IMG/VR virus record: IMGVR_UViG_3300049846_001037
Coordinates: 124,001-188,000 of that record
From: a virus
DNA length: 64,000 bases
Direction: 5' to 3' (one strand)
Shown here: positions 8,398 through 63,195 of the stretch, in pieces
Numbering within the stretch: position 1 is the stretch's first letter
How the letters are laid out: every line of letters begins with the position of its first letter
The notes under the pieces: generated by a model
Databases searched by the model: none
The model's input: only the letters and a program-made list of their open reading frames with translations
What the model was told of the DNA's origin: nothing
Position numbers and translations under genes: made by a program

Positions 8398-8400
8398 CGA

Positions 8401-25401: not shown

Positions 25402-25406
25402 GCCCT

Positions 25407-25435
25407 ATTATACTTGTTTTCTATAAAGTTCTCAA
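25407..25435 (-). promoter_or_regulatory. Promoter of deoC, box directly before the start codon
   Basis: Minus strand: TTGAGA, 17 bases, TATAAT, with the class-two TTTATAGAAAACAAG spacer. The TATAAT ends 5 bases before the ATG at 25401. Confidence 0.72.
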
Positions 25436-26197: not shown

Positions 26198-26274
26198 ATA
26201 ACTAAAATAGAACTTTCTCAATATAATACTTTTCTATAAAAAAAAGCCTATATTGAAAAAGTCTATTTAGTTAT
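26198..26274 (-). promoter_or_regulatory. Large inverted repeat enclosing a class-two promoter
   Basis: Arms 26198-26225 and 26249-26274 are inverted copies of about 26 bases, with two single-base gaps and one mismatch. The loop holds the T8-ATAGAAAAG element; 12 bases from its first A lies TATATT inside the arm. The transcript of 25488-26177 probably starts here. The dyad could be an operator or, if read through, a long RNA hairpin. Confidence 0.6.
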
Positions 26275-30493: not shown

Positions 30494-30533
30494 TCTTGAT
30501 TCTATTATATTACATTTTTATAGAATATCAAGA
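30494..30533 (-). promoter_or_regulatory. Promoter inside an inverted repeat, upstream of DUF1257
   Basis: Minus strand: TTGATA, 16 bases, TATAAT (30504-30531), with the class-two ATAAAAATGTAA spacer. Arms TCTTGATTCTAT (30494-30505) and ATAGAATATCAAGA (30520-30533) cover both boxes, so a bound repressor would block both. Confidence 0.75.
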
Positions 30534-34662: not shown

Positions 34663-36255
34663 TTATGCTGATTCTTCCTCTAGTCTAATCTTGGTGATGT
34701 CAACAAGATCGATGTCTCTTGGCTTTAGCATTCCGAGGTCGCTCATATCGGGAGCAAAAACTCCATCACCATAGATTTGGTTGAGTTTTGAAACTCCTTG
34801 CTTGTAAGCGATCTCTGCATATCTCCTGCGCCTCTTGATGGCAGCAAGTTCAGCCTTGACCTCATTTTCTTTTTCTTGAATTGAATTGAGGCGTTCCTTC
34901 TTCTGCTCAACAACAGAGCCTTCAGACTCAACCTCTTCGTGGGGGAACTTGTTTCCAATGTCCCTGAGAGAGATGATTCCAACATCCTCTGATTGCCCTG
35001 GTGCTGCTGGAGCGGCTGGATTCTTGGTTTGAATACCCTTCTGAATGTTTGACTTCTCTGCCTCTAGGTTCTTAATGACATCGTACCACCTAGAGAGGTC
35101 TTCGGTCTTCTTGATGTAGTCGATATCAGCTTTGTATTCGCTGAACTCCTTGACTCTCTCTTCAACTTCAGCGAAAGCCTCACTGATGATAGCCTTCCAC
35201 TTTCTAGGAGCAGCCCACTCTCTGTTTTCTGGAGCCACGCCCCTCTCAACATCATTGGTCTTAACAATGAGGGATGAGATGATCTTGTCTTTATCCTGCG
35301 GAGCATAGTCTATGAACAACTGTGCTTCCTTGTTGTGGGTGATAGCATCTAAGCCACCCATCCTAAGCGTCTTCTGTTGCTCGGCATCCGTGTAGTCAGG
35401 AACGTCCTTGAAGTGGAACCTGCTCTTCATCTGTCCGTCATACACGGGCTTCTGAATGCTCTCTCTGGATCCTGGAGATGTTATCTGGGAAACCTTGAGT
35501 GACTTGAAAGCCTTAACGTCCTTGGTGGCCATTGTGCCGATGATCTTTACAAGCGGCTCTGGCTCAGTCAAACCCTTGAGGGCAAACCAACCACCGGCGG
35601 CATCGGTCTCCTGGCTCAAGGCTGTATACAACTCGTCAAGGCAAAGGATGAAGCGTCCAGAATACTTGACAGCGTTTTCTCTCAAGTCTCTCAATGGTCC
35701 TACTGAACCACCAAGCAATCCACCAGTCTGAGACAAGTTTCTTGCGTCTGTGAACATGAAGTGGTATTCGCTGACTGAGGAGGATGTTCTAAGTTGTGAT
35801 GGGTCAGTCAAAACTCCACCACGGAACCAAAGGAAGTCGTGAGACAAAGACCTCTCGGCCGCCATGATTCCAAGATACTTAAAGGTATATGACTTACCGA
35901 AACCTGCAGGGGCTCCAATGACACCACCGACCTTACCTGTCTTGATGGAGTCCTTAATTGCATCTTGCATCTCAGCGGTGGGAGGACTGATCCTTGAGAG
36001 CTCATCCATCGTGAGGTATCTGCCTCTCTTGTTGATGGCATCAATAGCCTCGTTGGTATAGTCTTCAAAGCTAAATGTCGCTGGGAATGGATTGGGTAGA
36101 GAGGTTGGCAAAGGAAGAGCAAGTCTGGCCTCTTCGAGCCTCAAGGCATTTCTCTTTGTCTTCAGCTCGTTCCAATCCTTGTACTCTGCTTGCATGGTCA
36201 GAGTCTTGGCGGCAGCTTCAAACAATTGCTTCTTTCTTAGAAGTTCCTTATTCAT
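34663..36255 (-). CDS. P-loop ATPase with C-terminal coiled coil, 530 aa
   Basis: Walker A GAPAGFGKS (about residues 116-124) and Walker B RFILCLDELY (about 203-212) define an AAA-like ATPase; a long helical, Lys/Glu-rich coiled coil fills about 340-490. N-terminal part mentions ISPPTAEMQDAIKDSIK, a lead helix to the P-loop. It does not match a family I can name. It overlaps the upstream 186-aa gene by 4 bases and is followed by a terminator, so these two genes form their own unit. The cell target is unknown. Confidence 0.72.
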   Translation of the reverse strand: MNKELLRKKQLFEAAAKTLTMQAEYKDWNELKTKRNALRLEEARLALPLPTSLPNPFPATFSFEDYTNEAIDAINKRGRYLTMDELSRISPPTAEMQDAIKDSIKTGKVGGVIGAPAGFGKSYTFKYLGIMAAERSLSHDFLWFRGGVLTDPSQLRTSSSVSEYHFMFTDARNLSQTGGLLGGSVGPLRDLRENAVKYSGRFILCLDELYTALSQETDAAGGWFALKGLTEPEPLVKIIGTMATKDVKAFKSLKVSQITSPGSRESIQKPVYDGQMKSRFHFKDVPDYTDAEQQKTLRMGGLDAITHNKEAQLFIDYAPQDKDKIISSLIVKTNDVERGVAPENREWAAPRKWKAIISEAFAEVEERVKEFSEYKADIDYIKKTEDLSRWYDVIKNLEAEKSNIQKGIQTKNPAAPAAPGQSEDVGIISLRDIGNKFPHEEVESEGSVVEQKKERLNSIQEKENEVKAELAAIKRRRRYAEIAYKQGVSKLNQIYGDGVFAPDMSDLGMLKPRDIDLVDITKIRLEEESA

Positions 36256-36825: not shown

Positions 36826-36891
36826 TCTCCTGTAGTCTTTTCTATAGTACTATTTTATAAAAAATCGACATAAATCAGAGGCTACAGGAGA
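36826..36891 (-). promoter_or_regulatory. Inverted repeat enclosing a class-two promoter
   Basis: Arms TCTCCTGTAGTCT (36826-36838) and AGGCTACAGGAGA (36879-36891) are inverted copies of 13 bases with one mismatch. Between them the minus strand has TTTTTTATAAAATAGTAC then TATAGA at the fixed 12-base distance. One arm holds the AGGAG ribosome site of the downstream gene, so the dyad could also hide it in RNA. Confidence 0.6.
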
Positions 36892-38740: not shown

Positions 38741-39058
38741 TTATTCTCCCTGTTGTGAGAGCGCCTGCTCCATCTGCTGCTCATAGTATCTTTGTTCCGC
38801 CAGCCTATCTATTTGTTCATCTCTCTTTTGTTTTAGACCCAAAACATACATCTTAAATTCCTGCAAACTTTTGTAGGGTGAGCCAACCACTTCATAGATA
38901 GTGGGATCACTTAAGGATGGTTCTCCTAGAATCCATCCATCAGGAGCCTTGATAGCACGATAACCCATGTACTCGGCCAGATTATTTACTTCTGCCAAGG
39001 TGCGCTCTTCGGTCTCGATGTTGTCTAGTTCATTGAGTAAGTCAGACCTCTTTCGCAT
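38741..39058 (-). CDS. Hypothetical protein with DLL-type N-terminus, 105 aa
   Basis: Start chosen at MRKRSDLLNEL (39058) with AGGAG upstream. The opening resembles the SxRxADLL tag of the proteins at 42.8-45.3 kb. Helical, acidic, ending in a Gln/Glu-rich tail. Has its own class-two motif just upstream. Confidence 0.7.
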   Translation of the reverse strand: MRKRSDLLNELDNIETEERTLAEVNNLAEYMGYRAIKAPDGWILGEPSLSDPTIYEVVGSPYKSLQEFKMYVLGLKQKRDEQIDRLAEQRYYEQQMEQALSQQGE

Positions 39059-39070
39059 GGATATCTCCTT

Positions 39071-39093
39071 TCTGTAATCCTTTTTTATAAAAG
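39071..39093 (-). promoter_or_regulatory. Class-two promoter motif upstream of 38741-39058
   Basis: Minus strand: TTCTTTT then ATAAAAAAGGAT then TACAGA, at the fixed 12-base distance. TACAGA runs straight into the AAGGAG ribosome site, so either the leader is minimal or the upstream TTTTATAAAA is the real minus-10 box. Confidence 0.5.
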
Positions 39094-39950: not shown

Positions 39951-40595
39951 TTAGAAAGTGATAGTGATGGATCCGTCTGATGAGACTGTGATTTCTGATG
40001 GGGAGATTGATGACTTGGACAGGCGATTGATTGTGACATTTTCGCCATCGATAAGGAGGGTTACTTCTCTTTCTTGTGTTTCATAGTTCTCGTCCTCTAC
40101 TTCTGCATAGAGGCTGAGTGTTTGCGAAAAGACTATTGGGCTAATCTCTTTGACTCCCCAACCTCTAACATCGAGGTCGAGTTTCCATTTGAGATTTGCT
40201 TGACCCTGGAATCTTTCGCCATTCCTTTCACTGACAACTTTAACGGGTGTTGAGAAAGTCCAATCATCGGACTGAGCCATCTTCCTTAGGGCCGCAATCT
40301 GCTTGATTGTTTTTCTGTAATCTTTTTTGGCCAATGTTGGGGAGGCACTTGACTGCCACTCCTTCACGAGATTCTTTTTTGTCTTGTCCCAAATCTGATT
40401 CAGAAAAGTGTTATTACTGATCTGCTTCCTGAGCATCCAAGTTCCATCTGGCCTTTGCTGGACAGATGGCTTATATTGGTCGGGAGCAGGGACTTCGTTG
40501 CCCTGAGCAGGCGCAGGACGAGAGGACCGGTCTTGGTAGGCAAGTCCTGTATCTGGGTTCCACATGTCTGGTCTGGCTGAAATTATTTTGCTCAT
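39951..40595 (-). CDS. Hypothetical protein, 214 aa
   Basis: Not recognised. Pro/Gln-rich N-terminal 55 residues, then a helical part and a beta-rich C-terminal half with a repeated Ser-Ser-Ile pattern, ending ITITF. May be a virion-associated protein, but there is no direct sign. No ribosome site is visible and the promoter-like TATTGT box touches the ATG, so translation may be leaderless. Confidence 0.68.
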   Translation of the reverse strand: MSKIISARPDMWNPDTGLAYQDRSSRPAPAQGNEVPAPDQYKPSVQQRPDGTWMLRKQISNNTFLNQIWDKTKKNLVKEWQSSASPTLAKKDYRKTIKQIAALRKMAQSDDWTFSTPVKVVSERNGERFQGQANLKWKLDLDVRGWGVKEISPIVFSQTLSLYAEVEDENYETQEREVTLLIDGENVTINRLSKSSISPSEITVSSDGSITITF

Positions 40596-40631
40596 ACAAT
40601 AATAGCAAAATATAAAAAAATGCCATTATTG
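40596..40631 (-). promoter_or_regulatory. Class-two motif within an inverted repeat, at a start codon
   Basis: Minus strand: T7, ATATTTTGCTAT, TATTGT, then ATG. Arms CAATAATAGC (40597-40606) and GCCATTATTG (40622-40631) differ by one base and frame the element. Confidence 0.5.
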
Positions 40632-41707: not shown

Positions 41708-41718
41708 AAAGGTTGCCT

Positions 41719-42435
41719 GTGGAAAATACCATCAAACTAATGGAAGCCAACGACTGGTTCCCCACCGTCAAAGATGAGTCGGTTCAACTCTTCGTTTTGG
41801 ACCCACCCTACAACGTTGGCTATGGCTACAATACCTTCAAAGATCGCAAGAAGCAATCTGATTATATCATGGAACAGGTCGAGATCCTACGCCAGTGTAG
41901 CAAGAAGCTCAAGGAAGGCGGCAGCATCTTCTACCTGAACTATCCTGAGAGCGCTGCTGACGTATGGGCCAACGTCAACTTTCTGACCCGCTTCGAGATC
42001 ATCACTTGGATCTACAACGTCCATTCTTCTGGTTCACCCGTCCGTAAAGCAACGAGGAGCTGGCTCTGGTTTTCTAAGGGAGACCCACTCATCAACCAGT
42101 CTGCTTTCGATGGTGAGTACCAGAACCCAACCGACAAGCGTGTAGCCCAGAGAATCAAGGACGGCTTCAAACCTGCAGGCTATGACTGGTGGGAGATTCA
42201 GCAGGTCAAGAACGTCAGCAAGGAGAAGCGTGATCATCCTTGCCAGTTGCCAGAGAAGATGGTTGAGAAGATCATCTTGGGAGCATCTAACCCAGGCGAT
42301 CTAGTCTGCGATGTCTACAGTGGTTCGGGCACCACAGCCATTGCAGCCATCAAGAACGGCAGGAAGTTTGACGGCTGCGATTTGGACAAGAAGTATGTTA
42401 CTGAGTCAAACAACTTCCTCAAGACCCTAAAGTAA
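41719..42435 (+). CDS. DNA methyltransferase, beta class (N6-adenine or N4-cytosine)
   Basis: One of only two plus-strand genes recognised. Start chosen at GTG 41719 because AAAGG lies 6 bases before; TTG 41713 is also possible. Catalytic motif DPPY comes early (about residue 28) and the AdoMet motif DVYSGSGTT late (about 199), the order of beta-class enzymes. About 238 aa, complete. No restriction nuclease adjoins it, so it may protect phage DNA or mark it. It is convergent with, and touches, the gene at 42436. Confidence 0.85.
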   Translation: MENTIKLMEANDWFPTVKDESVQLFVLDPPYNVGYGYNTFKDRKKQSDYIMEQVEILRQCSKKLKEGGSIFYLNYPESAADVWANVNFLTRFEIITWIYNVHSSGSPVRKATRSWLWFSKGDPLINQSAFDGEYQNPTDKRVAQRIKDGFKPAGYDWWEIQQVKNVSKEKRDHPCQLPEKMVEKIILGASNPGDLVCDVYSGSGTTAIAAIKNGRKFDGCDLDKKYVTESNNFLKTLK

Positions 42436-42782: not shown

Positions 42783-43538
42783 CTATTTGTTCAACGCTTT
42801 GATAGCTGCCCCTACTGCTGTGTCCAACTTTGTATGTAGCTCTGTCAAAGTGGAGAAGGTAAAACTTTTCTGATAACCCTTTCCGTCGCTGCCTTCGATG
42901 TCTGAAAACACGTATATCTCAGGCTTCTTGATGTCGAACTTCTTGTGGGTACTGGTTGGATTATAGTAATAAACCTTTACAATGAATGAGAAGTCCCAAC
43001 GAGTCTGGTAGTCTGATTCCAACTCAGAAAGATGCTCTGCCACTCTTGGAAGGTTCATTTGATACAAGTTGTGGTAGTCAATCTTATCATCGGGGACATC
43101 TTTCAATTCGCCAGGGAATGCTACCTTTACCTCTGCAATGGCATCCTTCGTGCACTCTGCCGATATTTCGCTCAACTTCTTATGTAGGCTTCCTGGGTAC
43201 TTACCAGAAGAAAGCATGTCGTTTGCGGTTGTATGTCCTATTAAACCAAAAGCGCCGTTGACGTGGGACCAGAATCCACTGCGGCTCTGCCACTCAAGTT
43301 CAAAGTTATCCTCGTTTATCTCGTCTTCATTGAAAAAGTCAGCCAAAGAACAGAAAGAATCAGCGTGTTGGTTTAAGACCGATTTGATGACAATAGCAAT
43401 ATTGGGATTGCTCTCTATGTCATCAAGAGGTAAGTCTCTTAGATTCTCCTTGTCCTGAGCAGCCTTCTCAGCAGCCTGCTGTTCTGCAAGCTCTTTATTG
43501 GTCGTCAAGAGGTCGGCTCTTCTGAATGAGATGATCAT
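42783..43538 (-). CDS. Protein with N-terminal SxRxADLL tag, 251 aa
   Basis: Start chosen at MIISFRRADLL (43538): GGAG is 5 bases before and the ATG overlaps the upstream stop (ATGA). After the tag comes a Gln/Ala/Lys-rich linker (to about residue 28), then a soluble alpha/beta domain. Not recognised. Its first 11 residues match those of the proteins at 43535-44122 and 44937-45332, although the bodies differ. Confidence 0.72.
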   Translation of the reverse strand: MIISFRRADLLTTNKELAEQQAAEKAAQDKENLRDLPLDDIESNPNIAIVIKSVLNQHADSFCSLADFFNEDEINEDNFELEWQSRSGFWSHVNGAFGLIGHTTANDMLSSGKYPGSLHKKLSEISAECTKDAIAEVKVAFPGELKDVPDDKIDYHNLYQMNLPRVAEHLSELESDYQTRWDFSFIVKVYYYNPTSTHKKFDIKKPEIYVFSDIEGSDGKGYQKSFTFSTLTELHTKLDTAVGAAIKALNK

Positions 43539-44122
43539 CGGGGCTCCAACCAATTCTCAGCTTCGTTAAGTACCACTGGATTTGACATGTTGTGGTCGGC
43601 TAAATCTGCCTCTTGTGACTTGACTACACTAACCTCGTAGCTGCCATCACCCCTAATAGCCTGAACAACGCCATCAAACTCTGTCCCAAAATACTTAAAC
43701 TTGACCTCGCTGCCTGCTGGGAACTTGGCATCCATAATCTTGTAGGTGGCATAGACAGCACCGGAGGGCAATACTCCGCCAGATAACTTTCCCTTGTAAT
43801 AATAGGGAGCCATAGAGTTCAGCGTGTTACCTACGGCATCTAGGGTATTCTTGTAAATGTTCCTCTCTCTAGCTGGAACTGGCATGGCATATTTGTTGGA
43901 GTCAACATCTACCTCTCCAACAGAATTGACAGTCCAAGACCTTTCTAGGTTAGCCATGATCGTAACAAGAAGGTGTTGCATAAATGCGCTAACCCTAGTG
44001 GTACTGATTTTTGAATCAACGCTATCACCCTCTGGACCATTGTAAATGACAAGCGTAAGACGGACCAATCTCTTGTCCTCATCTACCTTCTTTAAGAGGT
44101 CGGCTTGTCTGTAAGAAATCAT
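43535..44122 (-). CDS. Protein with N-terminal SxRxADLL tag, 195 aa
   Basis: Opens MISYRQADLLKKVDEDKR. The body shares weak points with the product of 44937-45332 (FMxxxL and NIYKN placed alike), so the two may be distant paralogues. The C-terminal part contains a beta-rich KFKYFGTEFDGVVQAIRGDGSYEVS, a Tudor/SH3-like pattern. Function unknown. Confidence 0.72.
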   Translation of the reverse strand: MISYRQADLLKKVDEDKRLVRLTLVIYNGPEGDSVDSKISTTRVSAFMQHLLVTIMANLERSWTVNSVGEVDVDSNKYAMPVPARERNIYKNTLDAVGNTLNSMAPYYYKGKLSGGVLPSGAVYATYKIMDAKFPAGSEVKFKYFGTEFDGVVQAIRGDGSYEVSVVKSQEADLADHNMSNPVVLNEAENWLEPR

Positions 44123-44940
44123 TGGGTGATGAACTCCGTCATGATGATCATGGTCTTATCGTTACGTCCTTGCATGGGCTCAATATTGACCATGATGAAA
44201 CTGCTCTTGTGTATCTGCTTGAATGATTCACAGACTCTCTTTATGACTTCATTATACTGCGAATTCACATCGTCGCCCAAGGCTTTCGTGTATAAGCCGT
44301 TGCCCTCTCGGTGCAGCCCATTCTCAACCAGCGCTATCTTGAAGCTGTTTGCCATGTCGTCATTGCGGAGGATATCATATATGTCAAAGTAAACAATGGA
44401 CTGCCAACCACCGTTGACAGACCTAGTGCCTCTTGTGGCATTGACATAGTACTCCTCATGCCTCTTGCTTATTTGTGATTCTACTGTTCTCATTTTTAGG
44501 TTTGCTTCTATTCCTCTGTCCTTAATTTCCTCTTCATCAAATTTGAAGTTCTGATTGCGCCTCAAGTCCCTGATGTCTATAGGGAAGTCATTGGGCTTAG
44601 TGCTGATCTCTCTGGTCAAGATGGCATCCCTTATGAGGTTGCCGCTGCGGTTGATATCGAAGACTACGTAAAATGATGGCGTGTGTATCCTGACCCAGTT
44701 TTGTTTTACCAACTCAAAGGATGGAGTCTCGCCCATACCCCTCTTGATGTCTGCCCTTATGGAGTCAGCGCTCGGCAAGTTATATCCCTTCTTCTGTAGC
44801 CACTCATAATGATCAAGCATCCACTCGGCATGAGTCATGTCGTTGACTGGATAGACGTTACCACTGGGATCGATCCAACCTGAATAGTTGACTCGACCCA
44901 TCGTGGGGTTGCCTAAGCTTCTGAGTGAGATTGTTATCAT
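44119..44940 (-). CDS. Hypothetical protein, 273 aa
   Basis: Not recognised. Opens MITISLRSLGNPTMGRVNYSGWID, then a segment MTHAEWMLDHYEWLQKKGY, and later a long charged helix (KMRTVESQISKRHEEYY). Coupled by 4-base overlaps to both neighbours, so it is part of the tagged-protein operon though its own N-terminus lacks the tag. Confidence 0.72.
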   Translation of the reverse strand: MITISLRSLGNPTMGRVNYSGWIDPSGNVYPVNDMTHAEWMLDHYEWLQKKGYNLPSADSIRADIKRGMGETPSFELVKQNWVRIHTPSFYVVFDINRSGNLIRDAILTREISTKPNDFPIDIRDLRRNQNFKFDEEEIKDRGIEANLKMRTVESQISKRHEEYYVNATRGTRSVNGGWQSIVYFDIYDILRNDDMANSFKIALVENGLHREGNGLYTKALGDDVNSQYNEVIKRVCESFKQIHKSSFIMVNIEPMQGRNDKTMIIMTEFITQ

Positions 44941-45332
44941 GCCTTTGAGAATGTAAAAAGAATGGATTTGTCTACGTTGGAAACTTCCATTGTTGCATCT
45001 CCGAACCCCAATCTTGCGGCAATACCACTAACAAGACCCTGGGCGTACTTTCGTCCTCTTTCTAGGTCGTAAGATGGAAAGTTCTTGTAGATGTTATTGG
45101 CTGAACTCTGGGGTATCTCGAACTTATTGAACGCAAGGATATCTCTCATGAAATCTGACATCCCTTGATTGACAAACTCTGGATAATTACCCATCCATTT
45201 GCCGTCAACAATCTGCGCCACCTCTGGCCTAAAGGCTATCTGCACACCCTTATCACCTTCGACAAAGCCAATGATGCCGTAAGTCTTGGGATTTAAGCTT
45301 TCTAAAAGATCGGCGTGGCGGGATGATAGCAT
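44937..45332 (-). CDS. Protein with N-terminal SxRxADLL tag, 131 aa
   Basis: Opens MLSSRHADLLESLNPKTYG. Soluble alpha/beta body of 115 residues, not recognised. First gene of the operon 42436-45332. No ribosome site is seen: the TATCAT box of the upstream motif ends 5 bases before the ATG, so the message may be leaderless. Confidence 0.72.
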   Translation of the reverse strand: MLSSRHADLLESLNPKTYGIIGFVEGDKGVQIAFRPEVAQIVDGKWMGNYPEFVNQGMSDFMRDILAFNKFEIPQSSANNIYKNFPSYDLERGRKYAQGLVSGIAARLGFGDATMEVSNVDKSILFTFSKA

Positions 45333-45336
45333 GGTT

Positions 45337-45360
45337 ATGATACTACTTTTTTATAAAAAA
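45337..45360 (-). promoter_or_regulatory. Class-two promoter merged with the terminator T-run
   Basis: Minus strand: CTTTTTT, ATAAAAAAGTAG, TATCAT, AACC, ATG. The T-run that ends the preceding terminator is also the T-run of the promoter motif, so the two signals are fused. Confidence 0.6.
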
Positions 45361-45603: not shown

Positions 45604-46007
45604 TTAGGATCTCCCAGTAGCAACCTGCGTATCTTTCCTTCACCTACATGATCAAACCCAGTTCCCTCACAGTAGGGACAGGGGTCTCCAATCTTCTTCT
45701 TTGACCCACCATAACCATCACAAGTCTTACACTTCCACTGCTCAACCATGTAAAGGATGTTGGAGCCTACGTTTGTTCCCAGCCATTGAATGACCGTGTT
45801 GGCAACGAACAAGTCTCTCTTGGTGACAGGTCCACGAAATGGTCTGCCCCCATCGCCATTGGTCAGAAGAGCAACAAGAGTCTGATGTCCTCTGTTGAAC
45901 TCAAATGACTTTGCGAACAACCTCTCACGTCCGCTGTGTATCTGCTGCAGCCGGTGAGCATCGTTACCCTGATAGGCTTTCTTGACTTTGATGGTCGTAG
46001 GCTTCAC
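45600..46007 (-). CDS. Protein with DnaJ-type CxxCxGxG zinc repeats, 135 aa
   Basis: Two repeats, CKTCDGYG (about 93-100) and CPYCEGTG (about 109-116), form a zinc centre like half of the DnaJ cysteine-rich domain. The N-terminal 85 residues are basic and contain SGRERLFAKSFEFNRGHQ. No J domain. May bind unfolded protein or nucleic acid. Confidence 0.74.
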   Translation of the reverse strand: MKPTTIKVKKAYQGNDAHRLQQIHSGRERLFAKSFEFNRGHQTLVALLTNGDGGRPFRGPVTKRDLFVANTVIQWLGTNVGSNILYMVEQWKCKTCDGYGGSKKKIGDPCPYCEGTGFDHVGEGKIRRLLLGDPK

Positions 46008-46222
46008 TTCTTCCCCTTAAACTTCTTGCATGCTTCTATCTCGCCGTCTTCCAATGCGGCGAAGCAAGGAACGCATTGCCACATCTTCTCTGATTCGAAA
46101 TATCTCAGGAAGCCAACCTTCTTGCCGTACTTGCAGGGGTAAATCTTAGCCGTGTCCATGACCTCTGCCGTTGGCGTTACAGCCTGCAATGAGACACACA
46201 AAAATAGGGCTTTGAGTATCAC
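46004..46222 (-). CDS. Small exported protein, 72 aa
   Basis: Hydrophobic N-terminus MILKALFLCVSLQAVTPTAE looks like a signal peptide. The mature part has Cys at about 30, 50, 53 and 65, which could form two disulfide bonds outside the cytoplasm. Basic tail. Function unknown. Confidence 0.65.
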   Translation of the reverse strand: MILKALFLCVSLQAVTPTAEVMDTAKIYPCKYGKKVGFLRYFESEKMWQCVPCFAALEDGEIEACKKFKGKK

Positions 46223-46228
46223 GACAAC

Positions 46229-46621
46229 CTAGAAGTGATAGATGATACAGGTAAGCCCACCCAAAGCACCAAAGACCATATCCTCGGTTTTGATGTTGCT
46301 CTGGTTCTTTTCGGCATAGTAAGCCGACACAGCAGTTCCTCCCGCCATACCCAAGAGGAGTTTGCCGATCAAGTACTTGGTTGCCCTGCCATCATTCCAC
46401 ATGCGGTAGGATTGCTCATCTCCCACCCAAACCGAGACCAACTTGGCTGTGGTTATTTCGCTTTGTCCAGACATGCCAAGGTAAACATCGTAGAGGGTTG
46501 CGCTTGCATAGCCAGACACGTATGCCCAACCAATGTTTGCGTCATCCCATTTTACGGAGATGTCGGTTGCCGAAAGGTTGGACGAGAAAAGAAGTAGAAA
46601 CCCTAAGACCCATGCTTTCAT
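46229..46621 (-). CDS. Exported protein with signal peptide, 130 aa
   Basis: Start chosen at MKAWVLGFLLLFSSNLSA (46621), overlapping the upstream stop by 4 bases. The signal peptide probably ends after NLSA. The mature part is about 110 residues with a hydrophobic stretch near 80-100 and a second at the end. Function unknown. Confidence 0.68.
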   Translation of the reverse strand: MKAWVLGFLLLFSSNLSATDISVKWDDANIGWAYVSGYASATLYDVYLGMSGQSEITTAKLVSVWVGDEQSYRMWNDGRATKYLIGKLLLGMAGGTAVSAYYAEKNQSNIKTEDMVFGALGGLTCIIYHF

Positions 46622-46905
46622 CTCACAGCCTCTTCCTCTTTCCGCATCCAATGATCAAAAGCCTCAAGGGAAGCCTCAAGCAGTTCTTCCTTGAGTTCTG
46701 CGGTGGCATAGAAGTAGTCGAAGCCAATGACTGGATGCTTGGGGAAACAGAGGTTGGGTCTCTGCTTGCCACGCATGAGGGCAACGCTGTTGAAGCCCAG
46801 TCGGCCCAACTCGTTCTCATAGGCTCCACTGATGAAGCCAATGATGTTCTCGTTGATGTTGGAGTCTTCGGGTATCGGATGAAACTTTATATTCACAAAA
46901 CCCAT
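46618..46905 (-). CDS. Hypothetical protein, 95 aa
   Basis: Start chosen at MGFVNIKFHP (46905), with AGGGG 9 bases before; the longer frame starts at a TTG. Soluble, acidic C-terminal helix with ATAELKEELLEASLEAFDHW. Not recognised. Confidence 0.66.
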   Translation of the reverse strand: MGFVNIKFHPIPEDSNINENIIGFISGAYENELGRLGFNSVALMRGKQRPNLCFPKHPVIGFDYFYATAELKEELLEASLEAFDHWMRKEEEAVR

Positions 46906-46915
46906 GATATCACCC

Positions 46916-47524
46916 CTATTCAAAAGTAATCGCAGCGCCGAAAATCATCGTGGTTAGAGATATTCCAAGGACCACTATTGCTCCTAAGACTCCAAGGAAA
47001 ATGCTTTTATCTAGCTTAAAGCACTCCTTGAAGACCATCAACATCTCATGGGCTTCATCTTGCTCTTGCCCAGTGATCTGTTGGATGGCTGTCTGGTAAG
47101 CCAAACTGTTCTCGTCCATGTCCTGTATCTTGACCAATCTTTCCTCAAGCGACTTCAATGCCTCAAGGTTCTTCTCAAAATCAAGGTCTGGAGTCTTAAG
47201 CCAAATGGCGGACGAGGGAGCAAACTTGTCCTTGTTCTCAGACAACTTACTGTAAAAGGTATGAATGTATTCGCTCTTGGCCTTGATGGTTGATGACTTA
47301 ACGCCCAGATCCCAGAAACTCTTGTAGTCACGCTTGTATTCGAAGGATACCATCACGGCGGCTATGCAAAAGTAAGTAAAGCAAATGAGACCAGTGACCA
47401 TTGCTATGGCTCCCGCAGTGCCACCCTCGGTTCGTCCATAATTGTCTCTGCGATATGCTGCGATAACAAAAAAGACAAATGATATTGGAAGCAGGATTGA
47501 TAGTGTGATTGTCAAAGCGTCCAT
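46916..47524 (-). CDS. Membrane protein, 202 aa
   Basis: Start chosen at MDALTITLSI (47524) with GGGAG upstream. Membrane helices at about residues 3-23, 38-60 and 178-202; a charged helical segment (about 70-175) lies between, with FEKNLEALKSLEERLVKIQD coiled-coil-like. Function unknown. Confidence 0.7.
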   Translation of the reverse strand: MDALTITLSILLPISFVFFVIAAYRRDNYGRTEGGTAGAIAMVTGLICFTYFCIAAVMVSFEYKRDYKSFWDLGVKSSTIKAKSEYIHTFYSKLSENKDKFAPSSAIWLKTPDLDFEKNLEALKSLEERLVKIQDMDENSLAYQTAIQQITGQEQDEAHEMLMVFKECFKLDKSIFLGVLGAIVVLGISLTTMIFGAAITFE

Positions 47525-48859: not shown

Positions 48860-49112
48860 CTTCTCTCCTTTTTCTGATCAATCTTCCCATGAATCGCCGG
48901 TCCACCTGTAGGGCTCCAGCCTCTATGGCCTTCTTCTTGTATTCTTGGCTAACGTCAAAGTGTTCCTTTGGCGTTCCTGCATACTGCAACCACTTCCTGC
49001 TCAAACCTATCTTGTCAGCCATCGCCAACAACTCTTCGGAAGTGTCGGCTAACATGTGGCTCATGATCATCCGACCATACTTAGCCTTCATGTCGTCTAC
49101 ATAGACAGCCAT
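48843..49112 (-). CDS. DUF4031-type protein, 89 aa
   Basis: MAVYVDDMKAKYGRMIMSHM, ELLAMADKIGLSRKWLQ and YKKKAIEAGAL match the DUF4031 family as I know it: small alpha/beta proteins common in phages and bacteria, function unknown. Length typical. Confidence 0.78.
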   Translation of the reverse strand: MAVYVDDMKAKYGRMIMSHMLADTSEELLAMADKIGLSRKWLQYAGTPKEHFDVSQEYKKKAIEAGALQVDRRFMGRLIRKRREDGSPA

Positions 49113-49441
49113 TACTTTGCCGTTGAACTGACAGCCTCAGGTGTAGCTATGGCCGTGGGCGTGAAGGTCGGCTGAGGCGTAGATGTGGGTCGGGGTGTGG
49201 GCTCGTATTTCACAACCGCCTGACAGACCTGCCTTCTGTGATAGATGGTGAATCCGTCTTTTTTGTCAAAGGTAGAAACACTCACCGAGCCGAAAGGTTG
49301 CCAGCCCGCCTTGATCATTTCATTGGTCTCTGTCGTCACGGATTCTTCATCCCAGCCACAGACAGCCTTGTAGGCGGTTATCTTCTCAGCCAGTAGCGGT
49401 GCAGCCACAGCAAGAATCAAGAACAAGATAGCCTTTTTCAT
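49112..49441 (-). CDS. Exported protein with Pro/Thr-rich tail, 109 aa
   Basis: Signal peptide MKKAILFLILAVAAPLLA with likely cleavage after it. The mature domain (about 60 residues) has two Cys that may form a disulfide. The last 30 residues are Thr-Pro repeats (PTPRPTSTPQPTFTPT), like a linker crossing the cell envelope. Function unknown. Confidence 0.72.
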   Translation of the reverse strand: MKKAILFLILAVAAPLLAEKITAYKAVCGWDEESVTTETNEMIKAGWQPFGSVSVSTFDKKDGFTIYHRRQVCQAVVKYEPTPRPTSTPQPTFTPTAIATPEAVSSTAK

Positions 49442-49747
49442 TTACGCCTCCTTGATGATGATGAGACTGTCATCGCTCCAACCATGCATGAGGTTGGCAT
49501 TGAAGAGGGCAGCATATTCCCCATCTCTCCTGCGCTGACCCTTCTTCCACGCCAGCGAATAGAGGGGCGTTCCATCGCAATCCCTGTCGTGGGAAGCAAT
49601 GTAGCCCCTGACACCATGACTGTCGTGGTAGTCACAGTTGACCTCAACCAGAGTATCCAGAGGAATCTTGTGCTTGATCTCCAGATTGTTCTGCCTGACG
49701 GTCTTGCCATTGGCTTCAACAACATCGCTGATGCTCATGACTCTCAT
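49442..49747 (-). CDS. Hypothetical protein, 101 aa
   Basis: Not recognised. The ATG at 49747 overlaps the upstream stop (ATGA). Soluble; beta-rich middle (EVNCDYHDSHGVRGYIASHD) with Asp/His clusters that could bind metal. Confidence 0.7.
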   Translation of the reverse strand: MRVMSISDVVEANGKTVRQNNLEIKHKIPLDTLVEVNCDYHDSHGVRGYIASHDRDCDGTPLYSLAWKKGQRRRDGEYAALFNANLMHGWSDDSLIIIKEA

Positions 49748-50079
49748 TTGCCACGCTCCAAAAAGAACAGGGAAGTACCTGGGTCTTCTATGCCCTTGCG
49801 GAGAAGTCTCATCTTATAGACCTCATCCTCTATCTCTAACCATGCATTCCAGTAAACCAGCCTGACACCTGACTCTCTCAACTCAATGGTGTGACCATAG
49901 AGACGAGACTCTTTGAAGCCACAGATTTCCTTCATGTGTTCAAGCTCTTTACCTTCTAAGCCCTGCAGCGTCTTACGGATGTGCTGCTTCATCAGCCGCC
50001 GATACCATCTCAGGGCTACGAACTGCTCTATCTTATAGAGAGCAATCCTGTAATAGAAGGCAATCTTGCTTAGACGCAT
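49744..50079 (-). CDS. Basic hypothetical protein, 111 aa
   Basis: Start chosen at MRLSKIAFYY (50079); an in-frame GTG at 50163 would add 28 Ala/Val-rich residues and is possible. Strongly basic and helical, Tyr- and Arg-rich, may bind nucleic acid or membranes. See the possible frameshift just upstream. Confidence 0.62.
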   Translation of the reverse strand: MRLSKIAFYYRIALYKIEQFVALRWYRRLMKQHIRKTLQGLEGKELEHMKEICGFKESRLYGHTIELRESGVRLVYWNAWLEIEDEVYKMRLLRKGIEDPGTSLFFLERGK

Positions 50080-50165
50080 GTCAGTAGCTAGCTCTGCTGC
50101 TTCGCCCTCTGCGACCCTCACCATAAGCCCCACCGCCATAGGTGCGACGGCGCTGACTCTCACTG

Positions 50166-50261
50166 CTAGTGGGAGTTGGAGTGGCCTCCCTCTTTTCCTT
50201 CTCTACCTGACCAGGGCTCTTGAGATAGGGGTCAGGCTTCTTGCCCAATCGCTTTTCCATC
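50166..50261 (-). CDS. Short gene, 31 aa, perhaps interrupted by a one-base shift
   Basis: GGAG precedes the ATG at 50261. The frame gives 31 aa and stops at 50166. If one base is removed at the CAAAG near 50220, the frame instead runs on for 59 aa, Lys/Glu- and then Arg/Gly-rich, and stops at 50081, one base before the ATG at 50079, the usual spacing here. So this may be a broken gene, a sequence error or programmed shift. Confidence 0.45.
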
Positions 50262-50268
50262 TCATCTC

Positions 50269-50520
50269 CTACTGAGGTTCAACATTGACTTGGCAATCAT
50301 ACCTTTGCCCGTTCTTGCAGTCGTAGAGATACATGCCGCAATAGGCCGTGCCCATGCCAGCACACTCCACGATGGTCCCCGATGCCAGCCGATACTTGTG
50401 GTATCTGGAAGGATCCGATGGCATATCACCCCAACCCTGATAAGCCCCATAGACACAGAAGCCTAAAAAGGCCGCTATACCCAGAATGGTCCAAGCCAAT
50501 GCTTTTAGAAATTGTTTCAC
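50269..50520 (-). CDS. Membrane-anchored protein, 83 aa
   Basis: Start chosen at GTG 50520, overlapping the upstream stop as GTGA, with GAGG before it. One membrane helix (about residues 6-28), then a Tyr/Cys-rich outer part with four Cys. Function unknown. Confidence 0.65.
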   Translation of the reverse strand: MKQFLKALAWTILGIAAFLGFCVYGAYQGWGDMPSDPSRYHKYRLASGTIVECAGMGTAYCGMYLYDCKNGQRYDCQVNVEPQ

Positions 50521-51017
50521 ACTGACCTCATGAGGGTATTGATATATTCCTTGGCCTTGCCGTAGCCCCAAGCATGGATGTACTTCTCATCCTTAGTCAC
50601 ATCCTCTTTGGGGAAGAGTGTCTTGGCATCGCTCTGGATGTTGGTCTGAGACCAGTCAATCATGATGACCCTTCGCCGCCAACCGATCTTGATGGGGCCT
50701 CGTGCTGTCGTCACCTCAAACCAAGGATAGTGAGGACGGTCCCCATATTCCTCAGGTATCTCCTTGACATAGATGGGTTGCTGAAAGCAATCCAAAAGGT
50801 CAGCCTTCTCCCGCTTGATGTCTTCTTGAACCTCTGGGTCCAGCAGCTCGCTCTGAATCGACACGAATTCAGAGATCTTCTCACACATCTCTGACAGCAG
50901 GTTCTCCTCGTCTTTGGTCATCTTACGCCCGGCCGCAATATGGATCTGGACGCCAAGCCTTCTGTTGCCAAAAGACTCGATGGAGGCTACCTTCTTGTAC
51001 TTGAGACCTTTGCTCAT
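50517..51017 (-). CDS. Hypothetical protein, 166 aa
   Basis: Start chosen at MSKGLKYKKV (51017) with AAGGAG 7 bases before. Soluble alpha/beta. Contains a Trp-rich region WFEVTTARGPIKIGWRRRV. Not recognised. Confidence 0.68.
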   Translation of the reverse strand: MSKGLKYKKVASIESFGNRRLGVQIHIAAGRKMTKDEENLLSEMCEKISEFVSIQSELLDPEVQEDIKREKADLLDCFQQPIYVKEIPEEYGDRPHYPWFEVTTARGPIKIGWRRRVIMIDWSQTNIQSDAKTLFPKEDVTKDEKYIHAWGYGKAKEYINTLMRSV

Positions 51018-52144: not shown

Positions 52145-52726
52145 CTAGAAGTTGATGTATCGCCGCCAGCGGGGAGTCTTCATCATCCGGTCCTGCCAGT
52201 TCTCATAGAAGGGCTGGAAGAAAGGATGTTTTCGGAAAAGGGGATTCTCCAACTCCGCATGACAGCCGCCACAGAACATGGTCTTGTGGTCGAACCTCTC
52301 GTGTGGGAAATGCAGTCCCACCACACAGAGCAGTCTGCTGGCCTTGTAGTTCAAGATCTTGGAAAGCCTCGTCTTCTCGAATTCGCTCTGCTTGTCCCGA
52401 ACCCATTCCCACGACCCTACCGCATGATAAGGGATATCGTGAGGAAAGAGAGCCCCACCATAGAGACTCCCATGATCGGCAAAGAAGTAGCCGCCCTGAT
52501 GAACCCTGCAATCCCGATTGACGCAGACCTTGACTTCCCTCTCAGGATAGTCTTCCTTGTTGGGGTCGCTGACATGCTCATCCAACGTCTCGAACTTGCG
52601 ACCCTTCTCGTCTACCATCAAAAGCTGCATGCAGACAGGGCAACGCCAGTCACTCTCCTGCCGCCAAAACCACCAGCCGATCAAGGAATAGGTGGGATTG
52701 AAGATCTGAAACCAAGGGAAGTTCAT
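52145..52726 (-). CDS. Protein with CxxC zinc motifs, 193 aa
   Basis: Start chosen at MNFPWFQIFN (52726), with GGGAG upstream. CPVC (about 26-29) pairs with a later Cys near 60-70, and CGGCH appears near 158. Trp-, His- and Phe-rich. Not recognised. Confidence 0.68.
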   Translation of the reverse strand: MNFPWFQIFNPTYSLIGWWFWRQESDWRCPVCMQLLMVDEKGRKFETLDEHVSDPNKEDYPEREVKVCVNRDCRVHQGGYFFADHGSLYGGALFPHDIPYHAVGSWEWVRDKQSEFEKTRLSKILNYKASRLLCVVGLHFPHERFDHKTMFCGGCHAELENPLFRKHPFFQPFYENWQDRMMKTPRWRRYINF

Positions 52727-53196
52727 AGCATCTTCTCCCAAGAACGCATCTTGATGGTGTAGTTTCCGTCTGCCTTCAACTGCTCGGCATAGTTCTCCGA
52801 TACAAAACGCAGCCGAACCATATTCCACTTCTTCTTGTAGAAGATGAAGCCACTGACATAGAAGTTGAAAGGAAAGCCAGGATACACTGTGTAGCTTGGG
52901 TTGACAATGTTGAAATGCTCTTTGCCCATTTGGAAAGAGAAGTTGCGCTGCCCATCTTCGGTGCCGAAACCAAAGACCTCAAAGGTCTCGTTGGAGAAGA
53001 CATAGGACTCACCTTCGAATTGCCACAACCGCATTACATTGGACTTCTCACGAGCCTTATCGATCTTGCCGTTGATCTCCCGCAAGATAGCCTTAGCCCA
53101 CTTGTCCTTGTACTCAGGATTCAACTTGAGCCCCAAACCCTTCAGTACGGCTTCGAGGATCTCAGTGTCGGTTGGTAGTACCTGATCAGTCTTCAT
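52723..53196 (-). CDS. Hypothetical protein, 157 aa
   Basis: Start chosen at MKTDQVLPTD (53196) with AAGGAG before it; the longer frame to 53364 runs through another small gene. Helical first third, then beta-rich, Phe/Tyr-rich. Not recognised. Confidence 0.68.
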   Translation of the reverse strand: MKTDQVLPTDTEILEAVLKGLGLKLNPEYKDKWAKAILREINGKIDKAREKSNVMRLWQFEGESYVFSNETFEVFGFGTEDGQRNFSFQMGKEHFNIVNPSYTVYPGFPFNFYVSGFIFYKKKWNMVRLRFVSENYAEQLKADGNYTIKMRSWEKML

Positions 53197-54653: not shown

Positions 54654-54841
54654 GGCTTCATCCTCTCTTTACACTGACAGACAATGCAAGGCTTCTCCTT
54701 GACATTGGGCCATTCCCCCGTTGCCTCTTTGTTCCTCTGCAAACAATTCACAGGCTTTGAACCAGCAGCCCTTAAACACTTCTTTGAGGCTAACTGCTCA
54801 ATGTCCCAAGAATCCAACTTGAAAGCCTTAACCTTCTTCAT
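54650..54841 (-). CDS. Small zinc-binding protein, 63 aa
   Basis: Basic, with five Cys: one near 22, one near 34 and CIVCQC at 53-58. Likely binds one zinc. Function unknown. Confidence 0.68.
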   Translation of the reverse strand: MKKVKAFKLDSWDIEQLASKKCLRAAGSKPVNCLQRNKEATGEWPNVKEKPCIVCQCKERMKP

Positions 54842-55305
54842 GCTGCCTCCAACTGATAACCATATACCTTTAAAGCCTCAGTCATCTTGATGATCTCCCC
54901 GCCTCTGACCAAGTTCCAATAAGTTTTCTCTCCCTCTTTCACAATATGCTTCCAGCCATAATGCCCCTTCATGATGCGGACATAATGCTTCGTGAACTCA
55001 GGCCCATGCGATAGGCTCTTGTCTTCTAACTTCTTCATAAAGATATAGGCATGCGTCAACTCATGAATAAAGTTATCGTATACCCGCTTGTTACTCATGC
55101 CAGCTATTCTAAAGGTATTGAAGTTAATATGACATTTTTGGGTTTGGTGATTGTAGGTGCAAGAAGCAGATACTCCCCTTCTCTTGCCACCCCCACCAAA
55201 GGCTTCACCAGGATCATAAAAGAACTTCAACGGGATATCAGGCAATTCCCGAAAGTATTGCTTCTTGACTCTGGCAAAGATTCGCTTGACCGTGGTTCGC
55301 CGCAC
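54838..55305 (-). CDS. SprT-like zinc metalloprotease
   Basis: 155 aa. HELTH at residues 81-85 is the HExxH zinc site with catalytic Glu82; a further His in SLSHGPEFTKH (100 or 107) gives the third ligand. Basic, Gly-rich N-terminus. Resembles SprT/Spartan enzymes, which cut proteins bound to DNA. First gene of the long small-gene operon, downstream of the promoter at 55354-55383. Confidence 0.8.
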   Translation of the reverse strand: MRRTTVKRIFARVKKQYFRELPDIPLKFFYDPGEAFGGGGKRRGVSASCTYNHQTQKCHINFNTFRIAGMSNKRVYDNFIHELTHAYIFMKKLEDKSLSHGPEFTKHYVRIMKGHYGWKHIVKEGEKTYWNLVRGGEIIKMTEALKVYGYQLEAA

Positions 55306-55353
55306 AGCATGCCCCTATTTGAAGCCAGGATGGTCAGGGATCAACCTTTGGAC

Positions 55354-55383
55354 ATAATCCCACATCAGCCCCCACCTTGTCAA
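55354..55383 (-). promoter_or_regulatory. Sigma-70-type promoter of the small-gene operon
   Basis: Minus strand: TTGACA, 17 or 18 bases, GGATTA or GATTAT, about 50 bases before the ATG at 55305. Confidence 0.62.
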
Positions 55384-55699
55384 GATAAATATCACTTGTT
55401 AGGTCGATTCTGTGGCGCAAAACCTGGAAAAAATAAAAATAGGGATTTGACTTTTTCGGGGGCTTTCGGAAAAAACTTTTTTAGCGATTTGGATAACCGC
55501 TGAGAGTACATACTCTGACACACTTTTTGACCCCCACCCCCTACTTTTTTGGGGCTTTTTTCCCCTTATATTTCAATGATTTTTGCCTCTTTTTGATGAA
55601 AATCCTTGTGTTTCAAGGCTTTTATAGCCCCCAATAGGGGTAGGAGGGGTGGGGAGGATGTCCCAGCAGGTAAGGGAAAGCCTGCAGATGTCATCCCTC

Positions 55700-56545: not shown

Positions 56546-56752
56546 TTATTTCCCCCTCTTGTTGGCTTCATTGCGGAGTTTGGTCATGACTTCGAGGGCA
56601 CGGGCAAGGATGGCGGCTTCGCTCTGATGACCCAGCATGAAGACACCCAGCGAATGAACAGCATCCAACATCTCGTCATTGGGAATGGTGGGAATGCTTT
56701 GTTCCAGTTCCGCCAGCATCGCCATCTTCTCGTTGTAGACTTGGGTATCCAT
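56546..56752 (-). CDS. Small helical protein, 68 aa
   Basis: Two or three helices; MAMLAELEQSIPTIPNDEML, then AAILARALEVMTKLRNEANK. Mildly charged. Function unknown. Directly downstream of promoter 56779-56807. Confidence 0.72.
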   Translation of the reverse strand: MDTQVYNEKMAMLAELEQSIPTIPNDEMLDAVHSLGVFMLGHQSEAAILARALEVMTKLRNEANKRGK

Positions 56753-56778
56753 TGGGTTTCTCCTTAGTTGATAAAGTA

Positions 56779-56807
56779 ATTATACTAATAAAGATAGCAC
56801 ATGTCAA
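56779..56807 (-). promoter_or_regulatory. Sigma-70-type promoter of 56546-56752
   Basis: Minus strand: TTGACA, 17 bases, TATAAT (full consensus). Shares TGTGCTATCTTTATT spacer with the promoter at 56461-56489. Confidence 0.9.
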
Positions 56808-56844
56808 GGGGGAGATGTTCGCCCGCTGCGAGGGAGGGGCGTTG

Positions 56845-56862
56845 TTACTTAAAGATAAGTAA
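56845..56862. repeat. Palindrome copy 2 (TTACTTAAAGATAAGTAA)
   Basis: Same arms with a changed centre (AAGA). Lies 37 bases before the TTGACA. Confidence 0.8.
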
Positions 56863-56906
56863 GGAGTGCAGGGCTGCAGGATCTGGCTGCGATGAGGTTG
56901 GCACAG

Positions 56907-56936
56907 CAAAAGACCTTCCGTGTTAGGGAAGGTCTT
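56907..56936 (-). terminator. Terminator after 56923-57102
   Basis: Stem AGACCTTCCC/GGAAGGTCT-type, then TTTTGC on the minus strand; the gene's stop codon lies inside the stem. Confidence 0.82.
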
Positions 56937-57102
56937 TGCGGGTCTTCTCTTTCTCTACCCTCTTGAGTATTTTGAGGGCGACTTGTTCTGCTTCTTCCAG
57001 CGTCATCAGAACCTTTTTCCTTACGTCATTCTTTTCTATCAGGCAGACATAAGGTTGTCGTAGACGTGGAAAGCGTATTTCTACTGTTTGTTTCTTTGGC
57101 AT
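56923..57102 (-). CDS. Small basic protein, 59 aa
   Basis: Start chosen at MPKKQTVEIR (57102), 7 bases after the upstream stop; the longer frame overlaps the upstream gene almost fully. Beta hairpin then a Lys/Glu-rich helix. Function unknown. Confidence 0.66.
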   Translation of the reverse strand: MPKKQTVEIRFPRLRQPYVCLIEKNDVRKKVLMTLEEAEQVALKILKRVEKEKTRKDLP

Positions 57103-61882: not shown

Positions 61883-61905
61883 CGGCAACAGACTGCTGGA
61901 GATGA

Positions 61906-62187
61906 TTACTTCTTCAACGCCTTGTCAATCATCTCTTGGACTTCTTTGACTATTTTATCTTTGGCTGTCTTCTCAATGGTGGCTCGGAACATGGGACGAA
62001 GGGACTCACGCTCGTAGTCGCTCACCTTTAAGCCTGCGAGGATTTCGTCTTCCACTTTGCGTAGCGTAGGAATCATCTGTTCAAAGGTCTTGAGCATCTG
62101 AACACGCAGAAACTCATTGACCTGCTCAATTTGTTTATGAACAGATTCTTGTTCCATCTCTTTTAGTGTGTTGAGTAGGTCAGCCAT
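61906..62187 (-). CDS. Coiled-coil protein, 93 aa
   Basis: Nearly all helical, heptad-like: MADLLNTLKEMEQESVHKQI, then FEQMIPTLRKVEDEIL and a Lys-rich end. Likely forms an oligomer. Function unknown. Overlaps the upstream 58-aa gene by 8 bases. Confidence 0.75.
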   Translation of the reverse strand: MADLLNTLKEMEQESVHKQIEQVNEFLRVQMLKTFEQMIPTLRKVEDEILAGLKVSDYERESLRPMFRATIEKTAKDKIVKEVQEMIDKALKK

Positions 62188-62356
62188 TGGGCACCTTCAT
62201 TGAAGCAAGACAATCTTTGCAGGTGACTTTCTTCCAGTCAAAGGAAGATTGGGGGTCATCGTATTTCATGCCATCGTAGTCGCAGAGGATGTAGGATTCA
62301 TCTTCTCCACTTGATTGGGAGCAGGTCTCTCCAGCGGCGGCATGCACGACCTTCAT
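62180..62356 (-). CDS. Small Cys-containing protein, 58 aa
   Basis: Read directly from the DNA. Opens MKVVHAAAGETCSQSSGEDE; Cys at 12 and 25, then CKDC at 46-49, a probable zinc site. Its ATG overlaps the upstream stop by 4 bases and its stop overlaps the next ATG by 8. Function unknown. Confidence 0.74.
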   Translation of the reverse strand: MKVVHAAAGETCSQSSGEDESYILCDYDGMKYDDPQSSFDWKKVTCKDCLASMKVPNG

Positions 62357-62712
62357 GGCTTCTGCTCCTTGTAGTTCACCATCTCTGCGATCTTTTTCAG
62401 GAGCTCATAGTTGTCCTGAACGCCCACCACATTACCGAGGTAGTGAGCGTTAGCCTTGACCCACGCCTTGCGTTCCACTTCTTCCATTGAGAAGCAGACC
62501 CCACGCAGAGTTCCTTCACGCAGTTCCTTCTTGGAAATCTTGATGGGGTTGCGCCAGTCCTTGCCCACAATCCAAGACTGGGTGGTTTCCCCGTCAATGG
62601 TGTGAGGACGCCAATGTTCCTTCCAGATGGGTCCGCCAGTTGAGCGACCCTGAGCATCTTTGGCGTAGACTCTGTGGTTGTCTTCGAAGATGTAGATGGT
62701 TGAGCCGATCAT
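62353..62712 (-). CDS. Hypothetical protein, 119 aa
   Basis: Beta-rich first half (IYIFEDNHRVYAKDAQGRST), Trp-rich, then a helix ending LLKKIAEMVNYKEQ. Soluble. Not recognised. Confidence 0.74.
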   Translation of the reverse strand: MIGSTIYIFEDNHRVYAKDAQGRSTGGPIWKEHWRPHTIDGETTQSWIVGKDWRNPIKISKKELREGTLRGVCFSMEEVERKAWVKANAHYLGNVVGVQDNYELLKKIAEMVNYKEQKP

Positions 62713-62828
62713 TTTTGACTCCTGAGATATTCCTGATGCATCTTGCGAATGTGTTTGGTGTTTTGGCGTTTAGTATACAGCCCAGAAGCCACAAGGAAAA
62801 GGATGAAGACCAGCCATGTGATATCCAT
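62709..62828 (-). CDS. Small membrane peptide, 39 aa
   Basis: Start chosen at MDITWLVFILF (62828); a longer frame would run through the tRNA-like RNA. One membrane helix (about 3-19) and a basic tail. Such peptides can sit in the inner membrane; function unknown. Confidence 0.66.
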   Translation of the reverse strand: MDITWLVFILFLVASGLYTKRQNTKHIRKMHQEYLRSQK

Positions 62829-62884
62829 TACTTGGCTCCTTTGAATTTCTTCTTGGCTTTCTTGTATTTGCGTAGGCGGCTCAT
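62828..62884 (-). CDS. Tiny basic peptide, 18 aa
   Basis: Reads MSRLRKYKKAKKKFKGAK, 11 of 18 residues basic. Stop and next start overlap (TAATG), and a purine-rich AGGA lies before the ATG. It could be a leader peptide or an RNA-binding peptide; short length keeps it uncertain. Confidence 0.5.
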   Translation of the reverse strand: MSRLRKYKKAKKKFKGAK

Positions 62885-62904
62885 GACACATCCTATAAGG
62901 GGGC

Positions 62905-63005
62905 GGTGAGAGACCGAACCCACTTTTAATGGCAGAGGGGCGGATTCGAACCGCTCTCCCTATCTCTAGGGCGACTTTCCATCGTCCATCTCTGGGGCTC
63001 TCACC
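62905..63005 (-). ncRNA. tRNA-Ser-like leader RNA
   Basis: Directly after the TATACT of promoter 63013-63041 the minus strand reads GGTGAGAG, then a possible anticodon loop ATGGAAA (GGA, serine), a long variable-arm hairpin CCCTAGAGATAGGG, and GCGGTTCGAATCCGC, a normal T arm. One 3' side, CTCTGCCA at 62930-62937, pairs with the 5' end only imperfectly. Further on, CTCTCACC (62905-62912) pairs perfectly with GGTGAGAG. No normal D arm is seen. It is either a broken or odd tRNA, or a tRNA-like leader of the operon. Confidence 0.5.
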
Positions 63006-63012
63006 TGTCATC

Positions 63013-63041
63013 AGTATAACTTTCTGGGAGACCCTTGTCAA
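63013..63041 (-). promoter_or_regulatory. Sigma-70-type promoter of the tRNA-like RNA and its operon
   Basis: Minus strand: TTGACA, 17 bases, TATACT; expected start within about 8 bases of the GGTGAGAG. Confidence 0.88.
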
Positions 63042-63088
63042 TGACGCCAGCAGCTCTGGGGACGCCGCTGCTGATCCCCGGGAGCTGG

Positions 63089-63106
63089 TTACTTAAATTT
63101 AAGTAA
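63089..63106. repeat. Palindrome copy 7 (TTACTTAAATTTAAGTAA)
   Basis: Perfect 18-bp palindrome, 47 bases before the TTGACA. Confidence 0.85.
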
Positions 63107-63142
63107 GCCAGGACATCACGGGCTGCGGCGGAGATGTGGCGC

Positions 63143-63190: not shown

Positions 63191-63195
63191 TTCAC

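Follow-up and report, generated by a model that had tools for sequence, protein, structure and literature searches.

Four consecutive minus-strand genes at 42783-45332 of the window, a stretch of 64,000 bases (124001-188000) from a 205,426-base IMG/VR virus record, encode proteins that open with variants of one short N-terminal peptide, which is common to about a dozen otherwise unlike proteins of this large bacterial virus. Genes were called on the whole record with a simple caller; positions are given in record numbering when they exceed 64,000 or belong to genes outside the window. The window features are as follows.

44937..45332, minus strand: tagged gene 1 of the operon, 131 aa, MLSSRHADLLESL; no match in Pfam or PHROGs
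45303..45332, minus strand: tag of gene 1, M-LSSRHADLL
44119..44940, minus strand: gene 2 of the operon, 273 aa, MITISLRSLG; diverged tag, ISxR core only
43535..44122, minus strand: tagged gene 3, 195 aa, MISYRQADLLKKV
44093..44122, minus strand: tag of gene 3, M-ISYRQADLL
42783..43538, minus strand: tagged gene 4, 251 aa, MIISFRRADLLTTN
43506..43538, minus strand: tag of gene 4, MI-ISFRRADLL
45336..45357, minus strand: promoter-like element TTTATAAAAAAGTAGTATCATA, 24.3 bits, a held-out site, 25 nt before the first start codon of the operon
39951..40595 (record 163951-164595), minus strand: possible carrier, 214 aa, MSKIISARPDMW; ISxR at residues 5-8, then P
38741..39058 (record 162741-163058), minus strand: doubtful carrier, 105 aa, MRKRSDLLNEL, without ISxR
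39070..39091, minus strand: promoter-like element before the doubtful carrier, 21.5 bits
41688-41709, 36840-36861, 30503-30524, 26219-26240, 25406-25427 and 2430-2451: further sites of the element

The three N-termini reported in the initial annotation (MIISFRRADLL, MISYRQADLL and MLSSRHADLL, of genes 4, 3 and 1, all on the minus strand) were confirmed. ATGA overlaps join all four genes, gene 2 overlapping both of its neighbours, so that they look like one translationally coupled operon; gene 2 had been overlooked in the first reading because it keeps only the ISxR core. A fourth carrier proposed at the time, 38741-39058, does open with MRKRSDLL, but it lacks ISxR and its membership is not secure. 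Searches of the window carriers against Pfam, PHROGs and PDB returned no informative match, and the AlphaFold model of 43535-44122 is poor (pLDDT 45) and not interpretable. Two other genes of the window are recorded here in passing: 41713-42435, a plus-strand gene amid minus-strand genes, has a DNA-methyltransferase-like DPPYN motif and a product 27% identical to that of another gene of the record, 106657, and the 176-aa protein of 10478-11008 resembles residues 351-464 of the phage's own large terminase.

A search of all proteins of the record showed that the set is larger than first noted. The tag follows the pattern M-(I)-S-x-R-[Q/R/H/K]-A-D-L-[L/F], with ISxR as its core, and at least 12 tagged proteins are encoded in the record, namely the four window genes and eight others within the head and tail modules or close to them. 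Besides the window N-termini, the strict motif opens three further proteins, with MISYRQADLF in 54835-55386 and 56602-56991 and MISFRQADLL in 61902-62309; [RQ][QRHS]ADL occurs nowhere else among the called proteins. The ISxR core stands at the start of 45872-47131 (MSFRQAVKI), 52197-52751 (MIIISFRSIIAL), 70495-70884 (MIISARQINAYIG), 86300-86602 (MSSFNIISHRQVVAI) and 86599-87045 (MISHRQVQIV). The motif taken from three window proteins predicted three more carriers in other parts of the record, as well as one in a relative. Pfam and PHROGs gave no informative match to the bodies of the accessory carriers, nor did the PDB for those compared with it.

A chance origin of the tag was rejected. Of 279 called proteins, 13 have an ISxR[QRHKS] that begins in residues 1-9, where the internal rate (10 matches in about 60,000 residues) predicts 0.42; the Poisson P is about 1e-15, a value that is optimistic because the motif was defined on the same data. 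When residues 2-31 were shuffled, such N-terminal matches averaged 0.87 and never exceeded 5. One of the 13, MSNRRTQRK of the head gene 64585, is probably a chance match. A motif-free comparison of 18-residue N-terminal windows over the record returned 32 pairs scoring at least 30 (a few ordinary paralogues and one duplicated call among them) versus 11 and 8 in internal windows, and as a positive control the same test on roughly nine tenths of T4 recovered MKTYQEFIAEA of ipII and ipIII.

No direct nucleotide relatives were found in the phage collection. Relatives of 43535-44122 and of the ATPase 34663-36255 were not found in IMG/VR, nor those of 42783-43538 and 43535-44122 among 24 related records, and none was found for 61902-62309. 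A strict DNA pattern for MIS[FY]RQADL had one match in IMG/VR, within a longer unrelated protein, and this was discarded as no true tag. The capsid protein has no relative in GTDB genomes and so gives no hint of the host. Six related contigs (G001 to G006) were reached through the terminase (about 57-81% identical) and the capsid protein (73-92%). In the 70495 family all seven orthologues keep both the S and the R of ISxR at 27-57% overall identity, so that these residues are as conserved as three of the family's cysteines; the AlphaFold model of this family (pLDDT 48, low at the two ends and better between them) is not interpretable. The G003 orthologue of 45872 opens MNRISFRNIKG, and G002 has a tagged accessory gene of 89 aa (MISFRKADLLDHI, L012 4031-4300) without counterpart in the record studied.

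In G001, five consecutive tagged genes follow directly after the capsid gene (8258-11096), opening MNYRYFIAYLGQ, MNYRYLIAYLGQSR, MTIIQYRHLIAYIGQSR, MNYRHLIAYLGQSR and MNRIYYLNKIAYLGQSR. Four of these five carry a local dialect, [QN]YR[HY][LF]IAY[LI]GQ, and the fifth has YLNKIAYLGQSR; the third (L110 9294-10292) is a fusion of two tagged units with an inner tag-like stretch, ISIRDFKKTAYLGESR. G006 proteins open MIKLSFRD, MKLSSRD and MKIKLSSRD. The product of G003 19002-20186 opens MISFRKIESG and comprises 394 aa with no family match and a HESAH motif, by which it could be a metallopeptidase. This gene adjoins the orthologue of 55388, which is the slot filled by 54835 in the phage studied, so that one slot holds in two phages proteins that are unrelated yet both tagged. 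ISxR is enriched in G003 (3 genes, P 3e-4) and in G006 (5 genes, 3 of them convincing, P 2e-5), and no such enrichment was seen in more distant relatives. Taken with the swapped accessory genes, the tags of the relatives indicate that the signal is coherent within a genome and differs between genomes, and that the proteins behind it change. Several unlike-looking proteins per genome in G015, G018, G020, G021 and G023 (within L120-L175), which are more distant relatives by capsid protein, share another recurrent N-terminus, L.KLA..LD..G...EAD.LD.II.

Outside the window, tagged genes of variable content adjoin the capsid, portal and sheath genes, which lie in the record among the following landmarks.

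73527-75296, minus strand: terminase
70936-72639, minus strand: portal
66758-68347, minus strand: head maturation protease
62588-63574, minus strand: major capsid protein
49038-50849, minus strand: tail sheath

Between portal and protease, carrier 70495 encodes a zinc-ribbon protein. The product of carrier 86300 matches minor head proteins weakly (E 5e-4), and its C-terminus, HVNCRC, resembles that of MuF proteins. Just upstream of the sheath gene are carriers 52197 and 54835; 45872-47131 sits in the tail gene block, and the window operon is a long way from the head genes. The product of 64585-66648 has near its N-terminus a stretch of about 90 residues that recurs at the C-terminus of the 75296-76300 product with 67% identity, and part of this repeat (GDVRDxEQKAFE) is found near the C-terminus of the head protease 66758-68347 (4585-6648, 15296-16300 and 6758-8347, respectively, in L005 numbering). 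The sharing between 64585 and 75296 is kept in relatives, and the module common to the three proteins is possibly core-binding.

A 22-bp promoter-like element with consensus TTTATAAAAA..TA.TAT.ATAG lies in intergenic sequence before structural genes. With a matrix trained on six structural-region sites, about 20 sites in the record score at or above the shuffle maximum of 16.0 bits, nearly all of them intergenic and on the gene strand. The element precedes the genes of the protease, of the 64585 product and of the sheath, and likewise their orthologues in relatives; a site between the capsid gene and 61902 scores 16.3, and G001 has the element 21 nt ahead of its run of five tagged genes. A weak match of 13.6 bits, below the shuffle maximum, is found at 40595-40616 before the possible carrier 39951-40595. 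Some genes outside the structural block (e.g. 154096, 149488 and 125929) are preceded by the element as well, a point against the packaging reading of the tag. The element would be a phage-specific promoter, probably a late one.

What is conserved in the tag is the peptide and not the DNA. Among the seven full-form tags, identical residues use the same codon in 48 pairs, versus 45.4 expected from codon usage, and different codons in 95 pairs; synonymous positions are saturated while the peptide is kept, which argues that the tag is neither a recently spread DNA repeat nor a signal in the nucleic acid. A regulatory, translational or mobile DNA or RNA element at gene starts, with the peptide incidental, could draw on the ATGA stop-start overlaps of several carriers, which bias the second codon towards A and favour Ile and thus account in part for the MI start, but not for the rest of the tag. 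Other overlapping genes lack the motif, the tags of relatives differ in DNA as well as in dialect, and with codons randomised at conserved residues this origin was rejected as highly improbable. Divergent paralogy, by which all carriers would descend from one duplicated gene recognisable only at its N-terminus, has somewhat more in its favour: carriers frequently lie side by side, and in G001 a region of the body is homologous in three of the five tagged genes, the other two being unrelated by hhalign. Within the record, however, blastp matched a single pair of carriers, 54835/56602, over residues 1-20 only, and hhalign from residue 23 to the end gave no carrier pair above 20% probability, against 98% and 85% for real paralogues used as controls; these are single-sequence comparisons, which remote homology can escape. 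The claim that the tagged bodies differ is thus borne out, full-length homology does not explain the carriers, and the suggestion that two of them may be distant paralogues found no backing. Bodies range from a zinc ribbon to MuF-like to 419-aa proteins, and even under common descent selection would have kept the tag alone. We regard paralogy as unlikely.

The tag might also be a recognition or propeptide sequence for the prohead protease, with no targeting role. A head maturation protease is encoded (66758), and residues 12-14 of two carriers read TFE or TLE, as in cleavage sites of giant phages (PMC5694885). Yet xxE, the cleavage motif of T4 and giant phages, follows the tag in only few carriers, most have no common site after it, and it is the extreme N-terminus that is conserved; we consider this reading rather improbable, slightly more so than paralogy. 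Docking to some other partner, such as a tail or neck component, an assembly chaperone, a membrane or a phage compartment in the infected cell, is the alternative that deserves most weight, and we hold it to be a real if minor contender. It would suit the window operon, distant from the head genes, the position of 52197 and 54835 upstream of the sheath, and that of 45872 and its tagged G003 orthologue between sheath and baseplate-side genes. It fits less well with the core carrier 70495 between portal and protease, with the minor-head-protein resemblance of 86300 and with the clustering of tagged accessory genes beside capsid and portal genes in three relatives.

We therefore return to the targeting or packaging signal proposed in the initial annotation. 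Protein-level constraint, gene neighbours and the shared element all fit this claim, and the motif occurs in other proteins of the phage and in its relatives; packaging into the capsid is the inferred part, and the tail-block carrier 45872 counts against it, making a strictly head-bound signal uncertain. That the tag serves some common docking partner in virion assembly appears quite probable. The more specific reading, to which we incline with some reserve, is a virion-targeting signal comparable to the T4 CTS, most likely one that leads to the prohead interior; we commit to virion targeting because of the P1 and T4 precedents and the T4 control of the pair test. The tag would act as a short docking peptide at the N-terminus, directing unrelated proteins to a single, shared phage receptor, most likely in the inner core or scaffold of the prohead. 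The receptor, we infer, would be a core or scaffold protein, for which the 64585-66648 product and the C-terminal region of the 66758-68347 protease are candidates. Tagged proteins would then be enclosed in the head, where the tag may or may not be removed, and some may be ejected with the DNA, like T4 internal proteins.

T4 internal proteins are highly diverse with only the CTS conserved (PMC3012670), and IPI and IPIII counter host defences or serve host range (PMC9391042). The tag is likewise a short conserved stretch at the extreme N-terminus of unlike bodies, with Ser/Thr followed often by an aromatic residue, on accessory carriers of variable content whose genes lie partly outside the head cluster. 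It differs from the CTS of IPI, IPII and IPIII (MKT[YF][QK]EF) in its unrelated sequence and phage lineage, in having about 12 carriers rather than three internal proteins, and in that the core genes 70495 and 86300 are also tagged. No homology to MKTYQEFIAEA was found, the resemblance being a loose one by eye (Ser/Thr, aromatic, mixed hydrophobic stretch) without shared motif. In P1, the first 30 residues of DarB suffice for packaging into the capsid, the signal being longer than 9 and shorter than 30 residues (PMC9024508); there too an N-terminal signal directs a protein to the capsid, but the evidence is experimental and concerns one protein, and the signal is not described there as common to a dozen unlike proteins. 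SPN3US gp53 and gp54 have matching N-termini on diverged head proteins, for which a CTS-like role was inferred (PMC5694885). Such propeptides of SPN3US and phiKZ-like giant phages resemble the tag as matching N-termini on diverged inner head proteins, but they mostly exceed 100 residues and are cleaved after xxE, and no matching sequence was found here. The L.KLA..LD..G...EAD.LD.II peptide is similar as a shared N-terminus on unlike-looking proteins of phages with related capsid proteins, and differs in its length of about 30 residues and in lacking ISxR.

Devices of this kind are familiar from T4 and P1 and suspected in SPN3US; as far as the open-access literature searched shows, the sequence, phage clade, number of carriers, dialects and tagging of core genes are new. 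Ejected and internal proteins of large phages serve early takeover and counter-defence and are not easily recognised from sequence. Should the tag mark packaged cargo, it would give a readable list of candidates in a clade without a cultured, studied member among the records found. The dialects of the relatives would be a natural experiment on the co-evolution of a peptide signal and its receptor, and the tag could find use in loading particles with proteins for delivery, an application already proposed for T4 and P1. It is possible, and we suggest it only tentatively, that this clade of uncultured large phages has a general virion-loading system, in which one prohead docking site would be served by drifting address dialects on core and accessory proteins freely swapped at set slots, with a cargo that could be listed from sequence.
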